Below, in pieces: positions 1,553 to 13,138 of a stretch of 64,000 nucleotides of DNA (positions within the stretch are counted from its first letter, which is position 1; every line of letters begins with the position of its first letter). Origin of the DNA: Opitutia bacterium (GTDB taxonomy: Bacteria; Verrucomicrobiota; Verrucomicrobiia; Opitutales; UBA953); contig BGOI01000001.1 in NCBI GenBank assembly GCA_003569165.1, positions 124,001 through 188,000 of the forward strand. Reading direction: 5' to 3'. A model generated the notes under the pieces. It worked only from the letters and a program-made list of their open reading frames with translations. It did no database searches and was not told the origin of the DNA. The position numbers and the translations under genes were made by a program.

Positions 1553-2242
1553 TTACTTGGTCTCGAGCGGGTGCTCCTTCAGGAGGTCGGCAGGGAGATA
1601 CTGGGCACGGTTACCAATGGCCTTACGGACTTCGGCGACCTTGGTATCCATGACCGGCTCGGCGACGTTACCCCAAGCCTGACGAACGTACGTGGCGATA
1701 TGGGCGACCTGCGAGTCCTTGAGGCCAGCGCCGATGTTGGGCATATTTCCGTTATACTTCACGCCGTTGACTTCGATTTCTCCGGCAAAGCCGGCGAGGA
1801 TCGCCTTGATAAGCCGGTCCTCGGAACCGGTGACCCAGACTGATTTGACCAGCGGAGGGAAGGCGCCGGGGACGCCGAGACCAGTCGCCTGGTGGCAGGC
1901 GGCGCAGTTGGCGAGGAAGAGCGTCTGGCCCTTGGCCGCGTCGGGCTCGAAGGCTACCGGACCACCGGCGAGGGAGGCCTTGGGGGCGTTCAGGTCGAAG
2001 GCGCTCGGAGCAAAATTACCCGAGTTCTGGGTGAGGTAGAGGCCGGCCCAGAAGCCGAATCCGCAGAAAAGGAAGACGATGAAGATCGGCGTGAGCGAGA
2101 AGCCCTCGGCCGGCTCGTCCTTATCGCGGGAGAGCTGCGAGTGAACCTCCACGAGGCGTCCGTCGGACGGGCCTTCGGAACCGGCGCCAGAGGGTCCCCG
2201 GCGAGGGCGGTTGTTATCAGGATGACGGTTACGGTCGTTCAT
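1553..2242 (-). CDS. Membrane-anchored monohaem cytochrome c, last gene of the respiratory operon
   Basis: A 229-residue protein with a charged N-terminal cytoplasmic arm, one membrane helix (about residues 52-70, FIVFLFCGFGFWAGLYL) and a C-terminal class I cytochrome c domain on the periplasmic side. The haem site is CAACH at about residues 113-117. A likely axial methionine is in YNGNMPNI. The domain resembles that of the cytochrome encoded at 4252-5010 and the C-terminus of the giant protein at 36271-40602 (shared NGVKYN.NMP and TYVRQ.(F/W)GN patterns). It starts 4 bases after the CcoO-like gene and probably passes electrons from alternative complex III onward. It stands where a dihaem CcoP would be in a cbb3 operon but has only one haem site. 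Confidence 0.85.
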   Translation of the reverse strand: MNDRNRHPDNNRPRRGPSGAGSEGPSDGRLVEVHSQLSRDKDEPAEGFSLTPIFIVFLFCGFGFWAGLYLTQNSGNFAPSAFDLNAPKASLAGGPVAFEPDAAKGQTLFLANCAACHQATGLGVPGAFPPLVKSVWVTGSEDRLIKAILAGFAGEIEVNGVKYNGNMPNIGAGLKDSQVAHIATYVRQAWGNVAEPVMDTKVAEVRKAIGNRAQYLPADLLKEHPLETK

Positions 2243-2246
2243 GGGT

Positions 2247-2774
2247 TCACTGCTTCAGTTTGGCTTCCGGCGAGGAGTAATCCTGACGGAGGGATTGGAG
2301 GTAGGCGGCCAGGGCGATGGCGCGCTCGGTGGCGACTTCCTGCTTCGCACCAGTGTAGAGGAAGTCGAATTGTCCGTCATGCTGGATCGCGGCGTGCACG
2401 CTGCCGACGTCCTTGGCACGGGCGCCATAGTTGGCGAGGTCCGGACCGATGCGGCGTTCGCCGAGGAGGACCGGCTTCTGCAGGACGTAGTCGCGAGCCA
2501 CCGAGGCGCGGACGCCATAACCGCGGGCGATGTCGCTACCCTGCCCGGCCGGACGGACCTGCTGGGTATGGCAGCTGACGCAACCGAGGGAGACATAGAC
2601 CGCGCGTCCCTGGATGGCTAGGCCGGGCTCACGGGACGGGAAGAGCGGGCCACCTTCTTCGGCGGGGGCGGGACCCAGCGAGCCGAGCTGAACCTGGCTG
2701 CTGATGACCAGCACGCCGAAGGGGAAAGCAACGGCGAGGAAGATGCCCGCGAGGAGAGAGTTGAGATTCTTCAT
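2247..2774 (-). CDS. ccoO: CcoO-like monohaem cytochrome c subunit (cbb3 oxidase subunit II family)
   Basis: A 175-residue protein with an N-terminal membrane anchor (residues about 7-25) and a periplasmic haem-c domain of the FixO/CcoO family. The family signature is clear: YVSLGCVSCHTQQVRP, followed by YVLQKPVLLGERRIGPDLANYGAR. True CcoO supplies a methionine ligand from a SKMPAYPW-like loop. Here the corresponding stretch reads HDGQFDFLYTGAKQEV and has no Met, so the sixth haem ligand is unclear. The protein is shorter than standard CcoO (about 200 residues). It lies between the CcoN-like gene and a monohaem cytochrome and presumably forms a complex with them. Confidence 0.85.
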   Translation of the reverse strand: MKNLNSLLAGIFLAVAFPFGVLVISSQVQLGSLGPAPAEEGGPLFPSREPGLAIQGRAVYVSLGCVSCHTQQVRPAGQGSDIARGYGVRASVARDYVLQKPVLLGERRIGPDLANYGARAKDVGSVHAAIQHDGQFDFLYTGAKQEVATERAIALAAYLQSLRQDYSSPEAKLKQ

Positions 2775-2786
2775 GGGGTGTCCGGA

Positions 2787-4231
2787 TTAGTCGTGGCGGC
2801 CAGCAGAAGCCGGCGCAGAAGATTTGAGGATCATGCCGAAAGCGTTGAGCGCGAAGGCAACGTGGCCGACGAGCAGGAGCACCGCGGAGACGCAGAGCAC
2901 GGTATTCCAGGTGGAACCGGCCTTAGCGACCTGCTGGAAGGAAACTGACGCGTCAGCGAGCTGCTTACCGTTCTCCCAACCACCGACGAGCAAGGCGACG
3001 ATCGAAGCGACGGCGCCAAGGGCGGTGGCCCAGAAGTGCACGTGGACGAGTTTGGCGGAGGGCCAGCGCGAGCCGGTGAGGCGAGGCAGCACGAAGTAGG
3101 TGGCACCGAAGAGGACCATCGACGCGAATGAGTAGGTCAGGAGCTGCTCCTGGCCGGCGGCGAAGGACGTGAAGCGGACCACGGCGTTATAACCACGGAA
3201 ACCAAAGACCGTGTTGAGGACGCCGAAGAGAGTGAAAGCGACGGCGCCGAAGCTCACGAAGCGCAGCGTGGTGTCATTCCAAGCCCGGGACCAGCCGCCT
3301 TCGGCGGAAAGCGTGCCGTGAAAGTTGATCGCGGTGATGATCACCGGGATGATCAGCATCGCGCCGGCGACGACGCCGACAGACTGGAGCCAAAGCGGCA
3401 CCGGGGCGCCGATGAGGGCGGCCGGACCGGTCCAACCCGCGAAGAGGATGAACGACCAGAAGGCCACGGGGGCGAGATAGTAACCGCTGATGGTGCGACC
3501 GAGCACCTTCGGCAGGAAGTAATAGACGGCGGCGAGGGCCGAAGCGCCGAACCAAAGCAAGAGGAGGTTCGAGACGAACCAGCTGTGGGCGATGGCTTGG
3601 ACCACGCCCGAAGCCGGCTGCCAGAGGATGAGCAACTGGGCCAGGAGGTAGGTCAACGGGAAGGCGAACGAGGCGGCGACCACGAACCACTGCGAAGCGA
3701 AAGTGTGACCGGTGGGTCGGCGGGCAAAGGCGACGATTGGCCAGAAGCCGGCGAGCAGGAAGGCGACGGCGAGCACCGGGCCGACTTCACGGGGGAATTC
3801 CAGGAGCCCGAAACCCGTCTGGTTACCAGCGAAGATCTGGATCACACCATAAGTGAGGGCGAGGTTCCAGACCGCGCCACCCAGGGTCGCAAGCCAGCCG
3901 TTACGGAGCTCGAAGCGACCGAGCTGCGAGAGCAGCCAGAGATTAAGAGCAAAGAAGGCGTTAAAGCCCCAGCCATAGACGAAGAGGTTATGCTGAGCGG
4001 CGGCGATATGCCCGTAGGTGAGGATTTCGCAGTCGCGGAAAGGGCCGCCAGCGAGCGAGCCTTGCTGCAAGGCGGCGATTACGCCGAGGACCGAAGCTGC
4101 CAGCAGCCAGATCACCGCGGAGATAAGAAGAGAAGGAACGGACCACGGAGCTGAACCTCGGTCCGCGTGACACGCGAGTCGCCTTCGGGGGGACGGCCCT
4201 GCGGGCGGTCGGAACGATTTTCCTGAGTCAT
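2787..4231 (-). CDS. CcoN-like haem-copper oxidase subunit I homologue lacking the metal ligands (one frameshift)
   Basis: A polytopic membrane protein of about 481 residues related to CcoN. The likely start is ATG at 4231 (MTQENRSDRP...). A single-base frameshift near 4120-4135 must be crossed to join VTRTEVQLRGPFLLF to LISAVIWLLAASVLG. CcoN landmarks are kept (YYFLPK, FWSFILFAGWTGP, FGATYFVLP, LVHVHFW). In gapless comparison with remembered Pseudomonas CcoN, the ligands are replaced: low-spin haem His of RPLHTNAV becomes AAQHNL, CuB His of YGHN becomes VSN, WAGPHH becomes WTGPAA, and GHVH becomes GQEQ. The cross-linked Tyr is Ala. I infer a protein without haem b, haem b3 or CuB. It is followed by the CcoO-like gene after 12 bases. 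It could be a structural or electron-relay partner of complex III rather than an oxidase. Confidence 0.85.
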
Positions 4232-4251
4232 CGGTTAAAGTAAGTGGGGGA

Positions 4252-5002
4252 TTATTTGAGGCCGAGCTCGGCAGTGGTCCACATCGCCGTACGACCAGCG
4301 GTAGCCGCACGGACGGCCTTCACCTGGTCGGCGGAAACTGGGTTACCCTTGTTGCCGAAGCTCTGGCGGACGTAAGTCAGCACGTCGGCGATATCGCCGT
4401 CGCTGACTCCGGCCACAGGAGGCATCATGCTGTTGTAGGTCGTGCCTCCAACGGTGATGGGGCCCATCAGGCCTTGGAGGATGAATTTGATCGGGAGCTC
4501 TGGGTTACCCACGGCAATCGGAGCATTGGCGATCGGCGGGAATACGGGGGGCAGGCCCATACCCGTCGGCTGGTGGCAGGCAATGCAGGTGCGGGCGTAG
4601 ACCGCGGCGCCACGCTTCATCTGGTCGTCGGAAGCCTTCACGAAGGGACCAGCCTCAGCCGGAGCGGCGGGAGCGGGTGCAGGAGCTGGGGCGGCGGCGG
4701 CCTGAATCTTGGCGACGACCTTAACGTCGGCGGCGATGAGGGCGGCGGCGTCCTTGACCGGGATGCGATAGGTGCCGTCCGCGTTGCGGCCGGGCTCAGT
4801 AATTAGCGCGAGGCCCTTCTTGGAGTTGTCGGCACGCAGGGTCTTCTGGGCCTGGCGACGATCGGCTGCTTCGTTCGGGGCTTGGCGGACAGCGAGGTAC
4901 GCGTAGGCGGTCACGATCAAAGCGGCCGCGATAAAGCACACGAGGCGCAGCCACGAGGCGATCTGGCCGGGAAGTAGCGGGCGACTCCCGGAGGAAGGTT
5001 GT

Positions 5003-5010
<8 letters not shown>
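4252..5010 (-). CDS. Membrane-anchored monohaem cytochrome c
   Basis: A 252-residue protein. It starts MSEQPSSGSRPLLPGQIASW, has one membrane helix (LRLVCFIAAALIVTAYAYL), a linker with an APAPAPAPAAPAEA run, and a C-terminal cytochrome c domain with CIACH and a downstream MMPP as probable haem ligand loop. The ATG at 5010 overlaps the stop of actF (5003-5005) by 8 bases. The reading frame stays open upstream by chance, so the longer version is not used. Its place right after actF suggests it receives electrons from alternative complex III. The haem domain is a paralogue of the one at 1553-2242. Confidence 0.85.
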
Positions 5011-6277
<1,267 letters not shown>

Positions 6278-6284
6278 GGGCGAA

Positions 6285-6998
6285 TTACTTGATTTGGGCC
6301 TTCACGGCGGCGGGGACGAGTTCGGGCGGGCAGTTCTGCGAGAGCTGCAAAGCGCGCACGTAGGCCACGACAGCCCAGCGCTCCTCGGGGGAAAGCTTGT
6401 CGCCGTAACCCATCATGGTGTTCTTCCCATTGGTAACGACGTCGTAGAGCTGACCGTTCGGATAGGCGCGGATGAGTGAAGTCTGGAGGCTGGCGATCGT
6501 GACGATGGCGACATCGCCTTCGATGGCGGAGCGGACCTTCATGATGCCGTTGCCGTCGCCGGCTTGGCCATGGCAGACGGCGCAGTAGATCTGGTACTTG
6601 GCGCGACCCACGTCCAGAGTGGCTTGGCTGACGTTGTAATCGCTGAGCTTACCATTGGTGAAGCCGAGCGACTTCTCTGGGAAGCCGGAGATAAAGGCGC
6701 CCTTGGCGTCCTTGCCGGTGACGAAGGAAGGATTCTGGGATTCGGCGCGCTGGAAACCAGCGGAGAAGACCTTGGTAGGCTCGAGGCCAGTGCCACGGGC
6801 GACGGTGCCAGCAACGGGCGGACGCGCGTCACGGCCATCGGCGAAGAGAGCGTTCTCTCCCTGGGCCTTGTACTTGTTCTGATAGTCCATGTCGTCGAAG
6901 ACATAGACGGGCGTGTCCTTGGACGTCTTGCCCTGGAAGCCGAGGAAGCTGATCGTGGCAACGACAGCGACGGCGAGGAATGCGAGATAGCGGCTCAT
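6285..6998 (-). CDS. actE: Alternative complex III cytochrome c subunit ActE
   Basis: A 237-residue monohaem cytochrome c of alternative complex III, periplasmic, with an N-terminal hydrophobic segment (MSRYLAFLAVAVVATISFLGF). The ActE signature VYVFDDMDYQNKYKAQGEN lies near the start, PPVAGTVARG in the middle, and the haem site YQIYCAVCHGQAGDGNG near residue 140. MMGYGDKLSPEERWAVVAYVRALQLS provides the usual Met ligand and C-terminal helix. It is 7 bases upstream of actF and 9 bases downstream of actD, in the standard act order. Confidence 0.93.
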   Translation of the reverse strand: MSRYLAFLAVAVVATISFLGFQGKTSKDTPVYVFDDMDYQNKYKAQGENALFADGRDARPPVAGTVARGTGLEPTKVFSAGFQRAESQNPSFVTGKDAKGAFISGFPEKSLGFTNGKLSDYNVSQATLDVGRAKYQIYCAVCHGQAGDGNGIMKVRSAIEGDVAIVTIASLQTSLIRAYPNGQLYDVVTNGKNTMMGYGDKLSPEERWAVVAYVRALQLSQNCPPELVPAAVKAQIK

Positions 6999-7007
6999 GG
7001 GTGCGGA

Positions 7008-7550
7008 TTAGTCGCGGATGACAGTGATCTCCTGGCCGCCGAGCGACTGGAGGAAGTTGCGCGACTCATCGAGATGGAAGTGCGGGTCACGGGCCTCGAG
7101 GACGATCATGAAAGTGTCGTCCGAGATACGGGCGAAGTTCGGGAGGTCGAAGAGCGGGTGATTGTGACGCGGTAGGCGGTTGAAGATGAACTGACCGAAG
7201 AAGGTGCCGAAGGCGGCCAACAGAATCGTGCACTCGTAGATGACGGGGAACGGGAAGATCACGCTCCAGTAGGGCTTACCGCCGACAATCAGCGGGTAGT
7301 CGTAAGAGTTCATGTACCAGGTAAGGAGACAGCCGGTGATGAAGCCAGTGACACCGCCCAGCAGGGTCAGCCGCGGCACGGGGGAGCGAGGCAGGCCCAT
7401 GGCCTGGTCCATGCCGTGGATCGGGAAAGGCGTGTGCACGTCCCAGTTCTTCCAGCCGGCATCGCGCACCTTCTCGGCCGCGTGAAACACGTCGGACACC
7501 TTGCGGAAAGTGCAGGCGACGCCGTGGATGCGTTCGTTACGTTCGTTCAT
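7008..7550 (-). CDS. actD: Alternative complex III subunit ActD (DUF3341)
   Basis: A DUF3341 membrane protein of about 180 residues and the ActD subunit of alternative complex III. The family signature AAEKVRDAGWKNWDVHTPFPIHGMDQAMGL is near the N-terminus, followed by two membrane helices (LTLLGGVTGFITGCLLTWYM and YECTILLAAFGTFFGQFIF) and a ferredoxin-like C-terminal part. I chose ATG 7550 (MNERNERIHGVACTF), where similarity to the family begins. An alternative ATG at 7580 overlaps the actC stop by 11 bases and would add [10 protein letters not shown]. It is co-transcribed with actC and actE. Confidence 0.9.
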   Translation of the reverse strand: MNERNERIHGVACTFRKVSDVFHAAEKVRDAGWKNWDVHTPFPIHGMDQAMGLPRSPVPRLTLLGGVTGFITGCLLTWYMNSYDYPLIVGGKPYWSVIFPFPVIYECTILLAAFGTFFGQFIFNRLPRHNHPLFDLPNFARISDDTFMIVLEARDPHFHLDESRNFLQSLGGQEITVIRD

Positions 7551-7569
7551 GGTCGTTGGTCGGCGGGAA

Positions 7570-8979
7570 TCAGTGGGCATGGGGGTCGGCCTGCGGCGCG
7601 ACCATCTTCAATTCAGCCATCGGAAGCAGCGGAAGGAAGCGGATGAAGAGAAGGAAGAGGACCGAGAAGAAGCCGAAGGTGCCGAAGAACGTGAAGATAT
7701 CGACAATCGTCGGGCTGTAGTAACCCCAGCTGGAAGGCAGGTAGTCGTTGGCAAGCGAGGTGACGGTGATCACGAAGCGCTCGAACCACATGCCGACGTT
7801 GACGAAGAGGCAGATGATCCAGACGAGGGAATGGTTCTCGCGGACCTTCTTGAACCAGAAGAGCTGCGGGGTGATCACGTTACAGGACACCATGATCCAG
7901 TAGGCCCAGGCGTACTGACCGAAGGCGCGGTTCACGAAGGCGAACTTCTCGAAGGCGTTACCCGAGTAGGCCGCGATGAAGAACTCGGTGGCGTACGCGT
8001 AGCCGACCATCGTGCCCGTGGCCAAGATGATCTTACACATGTTATCGATGTGGTACTGATTGATCACGTCATGCAGGCGATAGATCGCGCGCAGGGGTAG
8101 CATCAGGGTCAGCACCATCGCGAAGCCGGAGAAGATGGCGCCGGCGACGAAGTACGGGGGGAAGATGGTGGTGTGCCAGCCGGGGACGTTCGAGACGGCG
8201 AAGTCGAACGAGACGATGGTGTGCACGGAAAGCACGAGCGGGGTCGAAAGGCCCGCGAGGAGCAGGTAAGCCATCTCGAAGTTGGACCACTGGCGGTTGC
8301 CGCCGCGCCAGCCCATGGCCAGCAGGCTGTAGAAGGCCTTGCGCCACCAGGTCGTGGCCCGGTCGCGGATGACGCCGAGGTCCGGGATCATGCCCATGTA
8401 CCAGAAGAGCGTGGAGACGGTGAAGTAGGTCGAGACCGCGAAGACGTCCCACTCGAGCGGGGAGCGGAACTGCGGCCAGATACCGTTCTGATTAGGCAGA
8501 GGCAGGAGCCACCAGCCGAACCAGACGCGACCGACGTGGAAGAGCGGGAAGAGGCCGGCGCAACAGACCGCGAAGATGGTCATGGCCTCGGCGGCGCGGT
8601 TGATGGACGTGCGCCACTTCTGGCGGAGGAGGCAGAGGATCGCCGAGATCAGCGTACCGGCGTGGCCGATGCCGACCCAGAACACGAAGTTGACGATGGC
8701 CCAACCCCAACCCACGGGCGAACGAAGGCCCCAGGTGCCGGTGCCAGTCGCGACGAGGTAGCCGAGACCGATGAACGTGAAGGACGCGACGAACAGCGCG
8801 ACGCCGAACATGATTTTCCACCAGAGAGGCGTCTCTTCCTCGACGATCCCACAAACCTTATCGGTGATCCAGTGGAAGCCGCGGTTGTTGAGAATCAGCG
8901 GGGAGCGCGGGAGCTCGGCTGGGCGAACCTTGTCGAGGATCGCGGGGCGCTCGGAAGAGCTGTCGTGGGCGTGAGCCAT
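7570..8979 (-). CDS. actC: Alternative complex III NrfD-like membrane subunit ActC
   Basis: A 469-residue polytopic protein of the NrfD/PsrC family with about ten membrane helices. In alternative complex III, ActC contributes the menaquinol-binding site facing the iron-sulfur subunit ActB. Visible landmarks are [14 protein letters not shown] near the N-terminus, [23 protein letters not shown], the [17 protein letters not shown] loop, WTYL-like helix pairs and [25 protein letters not shown]. The length and topology match the family. It lies between actB (22 bases upstream) and actD. Confidence 0.93.
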
Positions 8980-9001: not shown

Positions 9002-12000
9002 TTATTTGGCGTGATGCGCAGCACCATGGGCGGGCTTCGCGTGGGAGTCGCCGTGCGCTGGGGCACCGTGCGAAGCACGGCCGTCCATCTCGAGGCGGGA
9101 AAGCGGGACGAGGTTGGCGCCAGGCATGCGGAGATTGAGATTACGCAGCTTGGCCTGGTAGGTCGTACGCGGACGGGTGTTGAGGTAGGTCAGCGCACCG
9201 TAGGAACGGGTCGAGGCCTTGGCCTTGGCGACGCGGGACTTCGGGTCGGTGATGTCACCGAACTCGATCGCGCCAGCCGGGCAAGCCTGCTGGCAGGCGA
9301 CCTGGATAGCGCCGTCACGGACATTGATGTCGGGCGAATTGTCGCGGGCGCGAACCTTGGCCTGGATCTTAGCTTCCTGAATGCGCTGGACGCAGTAGGT
9401 GCACTTTTCCATGACGCCGCGCATACGCACGGAGACGTCAGGATTCTTCTGCAGCTGCGGCAGGTCGGCCGGATCTTTGACGGTCTTCTCGGGGCCGAGG
9501 GGACCTTCGTAGTAGTGACCGTCGACGCGCTTGTTGAAGTCGAGGAAGTTGAAGCGACGGACCTTATAAGGACAGTTGTTCGCGCAATAGCGGGTGCCGA
9601 TGCAACGGTTGTACGCCATGGTGTTGAGACCCTGGTCGTCGTGGACGGTGGCGTTGGCGGGGCAGACGGTTTCGCACGGGGCGGTTTCGCAATGCTGACA
9701 AGCGACGCCCATGAAGGTGACCTGCGGGTCTTCGGGGATGGCGTTACCCGCGGCGGCACGGCCATCGAAGAAGTAGCGGTCGAGACGAATCCAGTGCATG
9801 TTACGTCCCTTGAGCACCTGCTCGCGGCCGACGACGGGGATATTGTTCTCGGACTGACAGGCCGTCACGCAGGCGTTGCAACCCGTGCAAGTGTTGAGGT
9901 CGATCGACATACCCCACTGCTGGAGCGCGGGGAACTTGTCTTCGTGGCCCTTCCAGACGGCGACATTCGGGGCGACAGCGTGCGCCGGGTGCTCGTAGGC
10001 GGAATTACCGCGCGGCGTGGTGATGGCTTTGGCGGCCGGAGCCATGTTGCCGTCCTTGCCGTAGACGGCGGGGGCGTGGCCATCGATGCCGAGCTTGGCG
10101 AAATTCTGGTTCTTCTTCAGGTCTTCGACGTTACCTTCGCGGATGATATCGCGGCCTTCCATGGACCAGTGGTCCTGCATGTTGCAGACCGCCACGGTAG
10201 CATCGGTGAGAGTGAGTTTCACGCCCGTGCGGACGGAAGGCTCGGAGGCGGAGACGAAAGGATAGGTATTGAAGCCGTTGCCGGTGATGCGACCAGCGAG
10301 GCGTTCGTCGACGCGCGTGGCGATGCGACCAGCCACGCGGCGACCAAAGCCAAGCTGCAGGCCGACAGTATAATCCGCCATGCCTGGCATGATGAAGACC
10401 GGACCAGTGACCGTCTTGTCGCCGAGGGTCAGCGTGGCGACGCGGCAAATGAGACGGCCGTCGATGAGCTGATTGATATTACGGTTGAGAGCGCCGGTGT
10501 GCAGGAAGTCGGTTTCGCCACCAATCTTATTGATGAGCGCTTCGGACGGCTCGATGGCGAGCTTGGCCGCGAACTTGGGGCTAACGAGGATGACGTTTTC
10601 CCAGACCGTCTTGGACATGGGATCCGGAGCCTCAGCGAGCCAGCCGTTGTTGGCGTACTGACCGTCGCCCGAGTGGACACTCGGGATAAGGCGGACTTCG
10701 AGGGAGTCGAACGAAAGGGCCGGAGCGGCGAAGGACTTGATCTGCTCGGCGCTGACAGCGGGCTTGGCGGCGGCGAAAGCGGAACCGGCGAGCACGCCTT
10801 CAGCCAGCCAGGCGGCGAAGGCTTCGTCGGAGGCATTCTTCGACAGCGAGTTGAAAGTCTCGCGGACGAGCGCGTGGGCGTCCTTGTCGGAACCGGCGAA
10901 CGGAGCGAGGACATCGAGCTCGGTGACCGTCGCGAACAGCGGGTCGATCATCGGCTGCACCGGGACGTAGACGCCGCTGAGCGTACGGCCGTCGGACCAG
11001 CTCTCGAGATAATGGGAAGTGGCGAGGAACGTACCACCCGCGGCCTTCACGGCAGCGGAGGTTTCATCGAAGGAGGCGCCGTGATAACCGAGACGAACGA
11101 CGGACTTGGCGGACTTGATGGCGGCGCCGAAGTCGACGTCAGCCGGAGCATCGTAAACGGGGTTACCACCGAGGATGACGAGGGTCTCGGCCGGTTTGGC
11201 GGCGAGGGCAGCGATCGTCAGCGACGAGGGAGCCGGAGCGGCGACGTACTTGATGGCGGCGCCGAGGGCCTGGTTCGCGAGGAAGACAGCGCGGTGCGCA
11301 TCAGCGGACAGATGCTCTCCAACGACGATGAGCGCTTCACCCTTGGCCTTGACGAGGTCGGCGGCGCATTCGGTCACCCACTTGGCGTCGACGTTGATGC
11401 CAGAGACCTTACCCTTGAGGGAAGCGGCGGCGGCGTTGCCGGTCTGAGCGAGGACTTCGGCGGCGAAGAGAATCGCGAGGCCGGAGATGTGCGAAGACGA
11501 GGCGCGGAGGCGGTGATCGGCGGCGGCGCCAGTCAGCGAGAAGGTGGATTCGACGACGTAGAGACGCGTCATCTTCTCAGCCTGCTCCGCCGTATCGGCG
11601 CGGCGGGCGGAGGAATAGGCGCGGGTGTCTTCGATGGTGGCGTCATGCGCCCCAAGGAAATCGCGGTCGAGGCTCAGCACGCGACGGGCCTTGGCGTAAT
11701 CCGGCAGCGCGCGGGCGCCGAGGACGGCGTGGCCGCGATCCTGGGAGACGGGCGTGTATTCGACCCAGCGGGCCTTCGGGTAGGCGGCCTTGAGGCCGGC
11801 GACGAGACGGGCACGCGTTGGGGAAGTGGATGGACGGGCGAGAAAGGCCAAGCCAGCACCAGCGTCGCCCTTGGCGGCGGTGGCGAGACCGCGCACGAAC
11901 GCACGGGCGGCGGCGACGGAAAGCACGGAGCCATCGGCGGCGACGGAAGCCTGCGCGCGGTCCGGGTCGTACATGTCGAGCACGCTAGCCTGGGCGAACT

Positions 12001-12418
12001 TCGAAGAAGCTCCGCCGTTGGCGCGGTGGCTCGGGTTACCTTCGATCTTGGTCGGGCGGTGCTGGTGCGTCTCGACGAGGATCGGCTGATTGGCGAACTC
12101 GCCAGGGAAGGAGGAAGCGTAGTACGTGGCGACGCCGGGAATCGTGTTCTCCGGCTGCTTGGCGTAAGGAAGCGTGTGATTGCGGGGTTCGCGGCAACCG
12201 GCGAGACCGAGACCCGCGAGGCCGAAGGAGGCGCCCATGAGCATCAGGAACTCACGACGCTCAACGGAGGTGATAGCGGAGGCGCCTTCGACGAACTCGC
12301 GTTCGGCGCGGGTGCGGAACTCGGGCGACTTATTGCGCTCGTCGAGGCTGCGCCAGTAAGAGGGGCCGGTCGGCTCGCCGGGCTGGACCGCAGGGTGTTC
12401 GAAAACTTTCTTGCTCAT
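9002..12418 (-). CDS. actB: Alternative complex III iron-sulfur / molybdopterin-fold subunit ActB
   Basis: An 1138-residue fusion: an N-terminal catalytically empty molybdopterin-oxidoreductase fold and a C-terminal ferredoxin-like domain. A twin-arginine motif (SVERREFLMLMG, Arg 54-55) predicts Tat export or membrane placement on the periplasmic side. Cys clusters in the last 300 residues are CTGCNACVTAC (about 841), CQHCETAPCETVCP (about 905), CIGTRYCANNCP (about 940), CTYCVQRI (about 1003) and CQQACPAG (about 1044), enough for the three 4Fe-4S and one 3Fe-4S clusters known in ActB. The tail is His/Ala-rich. It relays electrons from quinol to the haem subunits. A 1417-codon frame on the opposite strand is a composition artefact. 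Confidence 0.95.
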   Translation of the reverse strand: MSKKVFEHPAVQPGEPTGPSYWRSLDERNKSPEFRTRAEREFVEGASAITSVERREFLMLMGASFGLAGLGLAGCREPRNHTLPYAKQPENTIPGVATYYASSFPGEFANQPILVETHQHRPTKIEGNPSHRANGGASSKFAQASVLDMYDPDRAQASVAADGSVLSVAAARAFVRGLATAAKGDAGAGLAFLARPSTSPTRARLVAGLKAAYPKARWVEYTPVSQDRGHAVLGARALPDYAKARRVLSLDRDFLGAHDATIEDTRAYSSARRADTAEQAEKMTRLYVVESTFSLTGAAADHRLRASSSHISGLAILFAAEVLAQTGNAAAASLKGKVSGINVDAKWVTECAADLVKAKGEALIVVGEHLSADAHRAVFLANQALGAAIKYVAAPAPSSLTIAALAAKPAETLVILGGNPVYDAPADVDFGAAIKSAKSVVRLGYHGASFDETSAAVKAAGGTFLATSHYLESWSDGRTLSGVYVPVQPMIDPLFATVTELDVLAPFAGSDKDAHALVRETFNSLSKNASDEAFAAWLAEGVLAGSAFAAAKPAVSAEQIKSFAAPALSFDSLEVRLIPSVHSGDGQYANNGWLAEAPDPMSKTVWENVILVSPKFAAKLAIEPSEALINKIGGETDFLHTGALNRNINQLIDGRLICRVATLTLGDKTVTGPVFIMPGMADYTVGLQLGFGRRVAGRIATRVDERLAGRITGNGFNTYPFVSASEPSVRTGVKLTLTDATVAVCNMQDHWSMEGRDIIREGNVEDLKKNQNFAKLGIDGHAPAVYGKDGNMAPAAKAITTPRGNSAYEHPAHAVAPNVAVWKGHEDKFPALQQWGMSIDLNTCTGCNACVTACQSENNIPVVGREQVLKGRNMHWIRLDRYFFDGRAAAGNAIPEDPQVTFMGVACQHCETAPCETVCPANATVHDDQGLNTMAYNRCIGTRYCANNCPYKVRRFNFLDFNKRVDGHYYEGPLGPEKTVKDPADLPQLQKNPDVSVRMRGVMEKCTYCVQRIQEAKIQAKVRARDNSPDINVRDGAIQVACQQACPAGAIEFGDITDPKSRVAKAKASTRSYGALTYLNTRPRTTYQAKLRNLNLRMPGANLVPLSRLEMDGRASHGAPAHGDSHAKPAHGAAHHAK

Positions 12419-12436: not shown

Positions 12437-13138
12437 TTAGCGGTGGCAGCCCGAGCAGCTCTGGGGCGGATTGACCTTCCAGTCGTGGACGAACTTCGTG
12501 CCGTCCGCGGTCTGCGCAGCAGGCGAAGTGGCCTTGTAGGCGAGGTCGGTGACCTTGTCGACGGGACGCAGGAACTGCTCGGGATTGCGGTGGCAATCGA
12601 GGCAGAAGGACATGTTGAGCGACTTCTGCTGGCCGACGACGACCTGCTGGTCGATGCGACCGTGGCACTCAACGCAGCTCACGCCGCGGTTCACGTGCAC
12701 GGCGTGATTGAAGTAAACGTAGTCGGGCACCTTGTGCACTTTGACCCAGCGAATCGCTTCGCCGGTTTCCACGCTCTTCTTCACGAGCGCGAGCGCAGGG
12801 CTGTCGGGCTTCACCTGGTTATGGCAGTTCCAGCAGGTACCAGTCGTCGGGACGTTGGAATGCGAAGACTTGTCGACGAAGTTGTGGCAATAGAGGCAAT
12901 CGAGACCGAGGACGGAATCGGGGCCGGCATGGAAGGAGTGATCGAAGGCGACGGGCTGATCCGGCGTGTATCCGACGTTCAGATACTTGTTCGTGGCGTA
13001 CTCGTTGACCGCGGCGGCGACGACCACGGCCGTGATGAGCAGGCAGACGAGGATCTGGAACGGGGCGGCGTTGACGGCCCGGGCGAAGAAGTTGCCGCGG
13101 GGGGCCGGGCGGTTAAGGAAATCGAGGAGTTTGCGCAT
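12437..13138 (-). CDS. actA: Alternative complex III pentahaem cytochrome c subunit ActA
   Basis: A 233-residue protein with one N-terminal membrane helix (ILVCLLITAVVVAAAV) and five CxxCH haem sites in order: CLYCH, CWNCH, CVECH, CLDCH and CSGCH. Five haems is the known count for ActA. Additional His residues (DHSFHAGPDS, NHAVHVNRG) supply distal ligands. It is the first gene of the operon, and actB follows 18 bases later. The AT-rich gap upstream (13139-13455) presumably carries the operon promoter. Confidence 0.94.
   Translation of the reverse strand: MRKLLDFLNRPAPRGNFFARAVNAAPFQILVCLLITAVVVAAAVNEYATNKYLNVGYTPDQPVAFDHSFHAGPDSVLGLDCLYCHNFVDKSSHSNVPTTGTCWNCHNQVKPDSPALALVKKSVETGEAIRWVKVHKVPDYVYFNHAVHVNRGVSCVECHGRIDQQVVVGQQKSLNMSFCLDCHRNPEQFLRPVDKVTDLAYKATSPAAQTADGTKFVHDWKVNPPQSCSGCHR

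Follow-up and report, generated by a model that had tools for sequence, protein, structure and literature searches.

A CcoN homologue without haem or copper ligands, encoded with alternative complex III in Verrucomicrobiota: a putative metal-free membrane platform

Subunit I of the haem-copper oxidases is usually annotated as a terminal oxidase. The locus described here raises the question of what such a protein does when every residue expected to hold its metals is missing. The window, which is the whole 64,000-nucleotide stretch of DNA that was analysed (G000:C1:124001-188000), comes from an Opitutales genome of 2.03 Mb in 37 contigs that is 86.6% complete. Its minus strand carries the genes actA-actB-actC-actD-actE-actF, followed by genes for a cytochrome c, a homologue of CcoN, a homologue of CcoO and a further cytochrome c. 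The adjacent actABCDEF set establishes membership in an alternative complex III (ACIII) module, though actF is frame-broken in this assembly. The ligand-free CcoN homologue is referred to as ccoN*, and the genes of the module are as follows:

12437..13138, minus strand: actA, multihaem cytochrome c
9002..12418, minus strand: actB, with a TAT molybdopterin-type N-terminus and an Fe-S domain
7570..8979, minus strand: actC, NrfD family
7008..7580, minus strand: actD (PF11821, 205 bits)
6285..6998, minus strand: actE, mono-haem cytochrome c
5003..6277, minus strand: actF, frame interrupted here; open (425-431 aa) in relatives, e.g. L033, L034 and L039-L042
4252..5010, minus strand: mono-haem cytochrome c (cytc1, CIACH), between actF and ccoN*, which is the ccoS slot of intact operons
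2787..4231, minus strand: ccoN*, ligand-free CcoN homologue; ATG at 4231, single frame break near 4125-4131, stop at 2787
2247..2774, minus strand: ccoO-like mono-haem cytochrome c, CVSCH at 2568-2582; usual axial Met region deleted
1553..2242, minus strand: mono-haem cytochrome c in the CcoP position (CAACH)

By sequence profile, ccoN* satisfies the first criterion of a cbb3 oxidase, a homologous subunit I. Its protein scores 130 bits against the COX1 family PF00115 and matches the solved cbb3 CcoN structures (9g6b and 3mk7) with a best phmmer E-value of 7.5e-22. A profile built from the window protein and 22 other ligand-deficient loci matches the cbb3 structures at 4.3e-61, with all of the ligand sites free of gaps, and an hhalign comparison of ccoN* with 15 relatives that bear the ligands and come from act operons extends over 464 columns. 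The protein fails the NCBIfam ccoN model (114-115 bits against an equivalog cut-off of 583), as does one member with intact ligands (L098, 235 bits). In P. stutzeri numbering the CuB ligands are His207, His257 and His258 (PMC3578206), and the remaining sites are numbered H60, Y251, H345 and H347. Alignment to CcoN locates the seven positions in the window:

3993-3995, minus strand: H60 to Gln, low-spin haem b His site
3570-3572, minus strand: H207 to Ser, CuB His site
3438-3440, minus strand: Y251 to Ala, cross-linked Tyr site
3420-3422, minus strand: H257 to Ala, CuB His site
3417-3419, minus strand: H258 to Ala, CuB His site
3150-3152, minus strand: H345 to Gln, haem b3 His site (Gln-Glu-Gln spans 3144..3152)
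3144-3146, minus strand: H347 to Gln, haem b His site

All six His that would bind haem b, haem b3 and CuB are absent, and the active-site Tyr is Ala. A preliminary description of the locus had claimed that all six ligand His and the Tyr were replaced while the landmarks of the fold remained in the sequence, and this held (Q, S, A, A, A, Q and Q at gapless sites). An alignment slip is ruled out by the gapless placement of the ligand sites against solved cbb3 CcoN. At the level of sequence inference, no site for haem b, haem b3 or CuB can be built in ccoN* from the known ligands. The further claim, that the subunit has no redox centre and that the operon's 'oxidase' cannot reduce oxygen, is supported from the sequence; the absence of O2 reduction is predicted from the missing ligands, and activity itself is inferred. 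The same description had remarked on a neighbouring His shifted by one place (AQHN). This column contains H, R or Q among 18 aligned rows (the window and 17 loci), so the neighbouring His is not a conserved ligand. A model-based alignment, proposed there as a check, was run, but the AlphaFold2 model of ccoN* (18 alignment rows) reached a mean pLDDT of only 47 and a pTM of 0.41, too low for use.

Could the loss be an error of sequencing or assembly? The ATG at 4231 (MTQENRS...) is out of frame with the rest of ccoN*, which corrects the earlier gene call. A one-base frame break occurs about 100 bases into the gene; the open frame spans 2787-4310, and the conserved part lies in that frame from 4124. 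In six of six close relatives examined (L033, L034, L036, L037, L039 and L053), start and body share one frame. The ligand loss is independent of the frame breaks, and assembly error and decay in this single genome are not distinguished. As a separate observation, actF (window 5003-6277, minus strand) is split over three frames by three breaks relative to the 90% identical locus L033, in which the frame is open; these breaks are possibly assembly indels. A contig search recovered 21 loci at 62-96% identity, mostly from Opitutae or Verrucomicrobia MAGs, and none has the full ligand set: 20 of them lack every ligand that their sequence covers (H60 is not covered in L050 and L052), and L047 retains only the His at the H347 site. 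Local sequencing error as the cause of the loss is ruled out, as these 21 other loci are also ligand-deficient. A contig titled Polynucleobacter meluiroseus (L043) carries an Opitutae-type operon and is presumably a mis-binned MAG contig. According to the preliminary description, its reading would be refuted if act-linked homologues kept the ligands and only this copy had lost them. That condition is half met, as 21 homologues beside act genes retain all seven residues and 54 do not. Since 54 act-linked homologues are deficient, ligand loss is widespread and not the error of one copy.

A related explanation is that ccoN* is a decaying pseudogene. The frame break near the start of the window copy, the three breaks in actF and the long branches of deficient copies on the CcoN tree speak for it. 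Against it stand the full frame in all six relatives examined, the 54 linked deficient copies distributed across families and class, 17 invariant columns among 23 diverse deficient copies, and a dN/dS of ~0.19 (median 0.185 over 91 pairs of the window clade). We consider decay very unlikely. Purifying selection on ccoN* is shown, and the gene is less constrained than actC (dN/dS of 0.062 for ActC, 0.125 for the downstream cytochrome c and 0.228 for CcoO).

The distribution of intact and deficient copies was surveyed in 288 genomes of the phylum, where 'deficient' denotes a copy in which not all seven residues (six His and the Tyr) are kept. A CcoN of the ACIII-linked type occurs in 65 genomes, every one of which also has ActD; the set of seven is complete in 21 of these, and between four and seven of its residues are missing in the other 44. 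The conserved operon comprises actABCDEF, ccoN*, ccoO and a cytochrome c. Within the taxonomic order of the window, ccoN is present in 40 of 40 sampled ActD-bearing genomes (20 intact, 20 deficient), and three genomes without ActD also lack ccoN. The residues that occupy the seven sites vary by lineage: QSAAAQQ in the window and AHSSRRW, QQGRHQQ, HSAQKFI, HHGQQFI, AAGVNQQ and others elsewhere. Alone among deficient rows, L055 (1270-2778) and L057 (7881-9380) keep the H60/H347 pair, and it is possible that they hold a low-spin haem b without an active site, as a half-way state. The 21 exclude L081, a canonical fused CcoNO whose act linkage rests only on opposite-strand matches. The 63 deficient loci include close copies, and they and the 97-row tree include L085, which is deficient, comes from a genome without ActD (G078) and is not counted in the 44. 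The CcoN-like protein of L085 (G078:C1:1340042-1356947) is ligand-deficient, 347 aa long and very divergent in sequence.

The maturation gene ccoS separates the two kinds of operon. All 21 intact ACIII operons have it as the gene immediately before ccoN (11 of the 21 were recovered with a profile made from the other ten), whereas a profile of the 21 intact sequences found no match at any of the 63 deficient loci (best E 4); at 59 of these loci the upstream sequence is 500 nt or longer. The window operon does not meet the cbb3 criterion of a CcoS in the cluster. In mutants without CcoS, cbb3 is assembled but inactive (PMC5742617, citing others); the sections of PMC8780969 that bear on the matter contain nothing on CcoS. 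Genome-wide, Pfam FixS is matched in 14 of 66 genomes, all 14 of them intact and with the match adjacent to ccoN, and the same search found no FixS in deficient genomes that have a canonical fused CcoNO. Because FixS goes unmatched even in genomes with a canonical cbb3, the ccoS argument holds for the operon and not for the genome. The presence of ccoG does not track intact copies: matches over its cut-off come from 15 of the 21 intact genomes and from 28 of the 44 deficient ones. A mono-haem cytochrome c occupies the ccoS slot before ccoN* in the window clade and in L070, L071, L089, L092, L124, L125 and L126, the last seven of which lie outside the window's order.

The neighbouring cytochromes retain their haem c motifs. 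The mono-haem CcoO partner expected of a cbb3 oxidase is present in the window (CVSCH), with the axial Met region deleted, and the CXXCH of CcoO is retained in 54 of 54 linked deficient operons. Other CcoO residues that are fixed in intact operons erode in deficient ones, among them three that are present in 21/21 intact operons each: the Tyr before the second Cys of CxYCH (3/54), the second His of WHxxH (16/54) and the axial Met (27/54). This pattern suggests, from sequence alone, that haem c ligation by CcoO is altered in deficient operons. The axial Met position is Cys in nine and His in nine of the 54 deficient operons, L069, L070 and the window clade being among the CcoO genes concerned. 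A di-haem CcoP, also expected of cbb3, is not found: a single CXXCH is present in 45 of 45 cytc2 matches from deficient operons and in 19 from intact operons. Since the 19 intact matches are also mono-haem, the intact operons differ from canonical cbb3 as well.

Residues specific to the deficient CcoN copies bear on another alternative, that ccoN* still binds a cofactor through other residues, either at another haem site or at an extra Cys. The Cys is positioned as follows:

4029..4031, minus strand: Cys before the second transmembrane helix (38/54 linked deficient copies, 0/21 intact)

This Cys, a His at position 392 of the alignment that is present in 49 of 54 deficient copies, and the H60/H347 pair retained by L055 and L057 favour the idea. 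It is opposed by the presence of His 392 in 21 of 21 intact copies beside a full ligand set, by the sole His column rich in deficient and empty in intact copies reaching only 25 of 54, and by ccoS not being found; we consider it unlikely. The extra Cys is spread over two deep clades, and no consistent partner for it was found among the Cys residues of CcoN or CcoO. It is possible, as no more than a thought, that it is tied to the changed axial ligand of CcoO.

If ccoN* does not reduce oxygen, another enzyme may. Another COX1 scoring above 350 bits is present in 44 of 44 deficient genomes. A search for a normal oxidase elsewhere in the window genome, also proposed in the preliminary description, found a caa3 enzyme (COX1 495 bits, G000:C9:7052-8476). 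The ligand motifs are retained in its subunit I, and CuA and haem c motifs are present in its subunit II. A bd oxidase did not turn up in this 86.6% complete genome. Three lines, namely the absence of ccoS, the presence of other oxidases and the loss of CcoO residues, indicate that the deficient copies are not oxidases. The intact form is likely to be a working oxidase, because two intact genomes (G001 and G146, 98-99% complete) gave neither a second COX1 nor a match for bd oxidase. Both genomes are small (1.3-1.7 Mb), with an intact CcoN linked to ACIII as their sole COX1. Outside the window's order, an A-type coxA lies 1.4-2.4 kb downstream on the same strand in 20 of the 24 deficient genomes, and also at one intact locus. 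With coxA directly downstream, the genes for ACIII, for ccoN*, ccoO and cytochrome c, and for a genuine oxidase thus follow one another in a single run there. No coxA adjoins ccoN* in Opitutales, including the window.

How often the ligands were lost was estimated from trees. All were quick trees with SH-aLRT support only, for which the program warned of meeting long branches, and the ACIII tree was made without a mixture model; three loci at contig edges (L038, L050 and L052) were left out, and the ACIII tree has 63 rows after close copies were dropped. Changes are read as losses because canonical and intact sequences form the outgroups and the regain of seven residues is unlikely. The CcoN tree, from which ligand columns were omitted, requires three changes, all forced by starred branches; one deficient sequence, L108, stands alone inside an intact family on it. 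The CcoO tree requires four, two of them forced, and the tree of five joined ACIII proteins requires eight, seven of them forced. Counted by eye with regain forbidden, the ACIII tree gives ten losses. On these quick trees at least three changes are required in every case; eight or more are plausible and unproven.

The trees disagree over 23 deficient Opitutales rows other than L108, and this leaves room for a rival history in which the ligands were lost on few occasions and act operons later acquired deficient ccoN from one another horizontally. In its favour, the CcoN tree unites the 23 rows (99*), and a single clade for family f3 is rejected on it (p 8e-5); after removal of the columns that intact copies conserve, a tree constrained to keep the 23 rows together still matches the free one (lnL 3 higher, p 0.67). 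Against it, the five-gene ACIII tree demands its eight changes, the CcoO tree rejects a single clade of the 23 rows (p 0.0004) and recovers f2 and f3 clades (under the starred support level), the rejection of f3 on the CcoN tree fades without the conserved columns (p 0.07) while the free tree places L061 within intact f2, and even the full CcoN tree needs three changes. On balance we lean slightly against exchange. Convergence at relaxed haem-pocket columns is our preferred reading of the 23-row grouping, and exchange of ccoN* between operons is not excluded.

For the window copy it is shown that all ligands are lost, that the operon lacks ccoS, that the gene is under selection, and that it is linked to ACIII and to mono-haem c-type cytochromes. 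A haem-free platform is proposed because ccoN* is retained, the haem c motifs persist, the neighbourhood is conserved and ACIII is known to feed caa3/aa3 oxidases directly. In this proposal, ccoN* derives from a cbb3-like (C-family) oxygen reductase that was encoded with ACIII and whose catalytic subunit it once was. Its present role would be architectural: next to ACIII it would form a membrane platform without haem, to which CcoO and the adjacent cytochromes c are anchored. Electrons would pass from quinol through ActA/ActE to CcoO/cytochrome c and then enter a separate oxidase of the A type (caa3) at its subunit II, and this enzyme would carry out oxygen reduction. The conversion probably occurred more than once, where a second oxidase had made the original redundant. 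We place the probability of this explanation as a whole at roughly 0.6; the platform role, the electron route and the physical association are inferred, and gene adjacency is the only basis for association. Several points weigh against it: no structure or biochemistry lies behind it, coxA is not beside ccoN* in Opitutales, the Met ligand is lost from window-clade CcoO (which indicates an altered rather than a conserved electron path), CcoN* (0.185) and CcoO (0.228) are less constrained than ActC (0.062), ccoG does not follow intact copies and FixS is no clean genome-wide marker. A role in ACIII stability alone would also explain retention equally well.

This last point is the main rival, in which CcoN* would serve only the assembly or stability of ACIII, as passive filler beside ActC/ActF, with the cytochromes c independent of it. 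The retention of ccoN wherever ACIII is kept in the window's order (40/40) with no coxA nearby, and the erosion of CcoO residues that are fixed in intact operons, support it. Against it, the CcoO and cytochrome c genes remain adjacent, each with one CXXCH (54/54 CcoO and 45/45 cytc2 in deficient operons), and A-type coxA is directly downstream in 20 loci. The rival remains possible, and the platform remains the reading that we prefer. A bolder version of the platform reading holds that a functional cbb3-like oxidase coupled to ACIII became, again and again (no fewer than three times, and at least eight on the ACIII tree), a metal-free adaptor wiring ACIII to an A-type oxidase, with possible half-way states surviving; we would not wager for or against it. 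If true, it would be a natural replay of enzyme-to-scaffold evolution at the heart of aerobic respiration, and it would show how a respiratory supercomplex can replace its catalytic end and retain the former one as a link.

Whatever its role, which is inferred, ccoN* suggests the conversion of a respiratory enzyme into a structural part without metals, probably on more than one occasion. In practical terms, 44 of the 65 genomes could be wrongly credited with an ACIII-linked cbb3-like oxidase. Related bacteria carry copies with all, some or none of the ligands, which offers a direct test of what the cbb3 module contributes apart from its chemistry. The earlier remark that no such family was known beside ACIII held in the literature searched, which contains no description of a ligand-free CcoN family; most subscription papers were outside the reach of this search. 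A paper from 2026 that describes an Opitutales isolate lists the genes immediately following actABCDEF as a caa3 oxidase (PMC13274419), and in Nitrospina a single odd residue is reported in the CuB region (PMC3578206), not loss of the whole set.

Compared with CcoN of cbb3 oxidases, ccoN* shares the landmarks of the fold in sequence, the gapless 4.3e-61 match and a CcoO with CXXCH, whereas in its operon the six His and the Tyr are absent, no ccoS was found, a mono-haem cytochrome c replaces the di-haem CcoP and the ccoN model score is 115 bits against a cut-off of 583. In supercomplexes ACIII is a direct electron donor to aa3/caa3 oxidases, and act clusters often precede oxidase genes (PMC5928083); such supercomplexes are also described in PMC8361435. 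The systems of Rhodothermus marinus and Flavobacterium johnsoniae have in common with the present one an ACIII operon, an A-type oxidase in the genome and the expectation of direct transfer, whereas here an extra metal-free, oxidase-derived module accompanies ACIII and, in 20 loci, lies between ACIII and the oxidase. CydB of cytochrome bd is a haem-free membrane subunit homologous to the haem-bearing CydA. Both CydB and ccoN* are haem-free relatives of a catalytic subunit kept as a structural part (a role that is inferred for ccoN*), but CydB belongs to another superfamily and sits in the enzyme beside its catalytic paralogue. A further comparison is with the cbb3-like oxidase of the intact ACIII operons, represented by 21 loci of which 20 belong to the window's order. 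This oxidase shares operon, gene order and family with ccoN* and, unlike it, has kept the ligands, the Tyr and ccoS.
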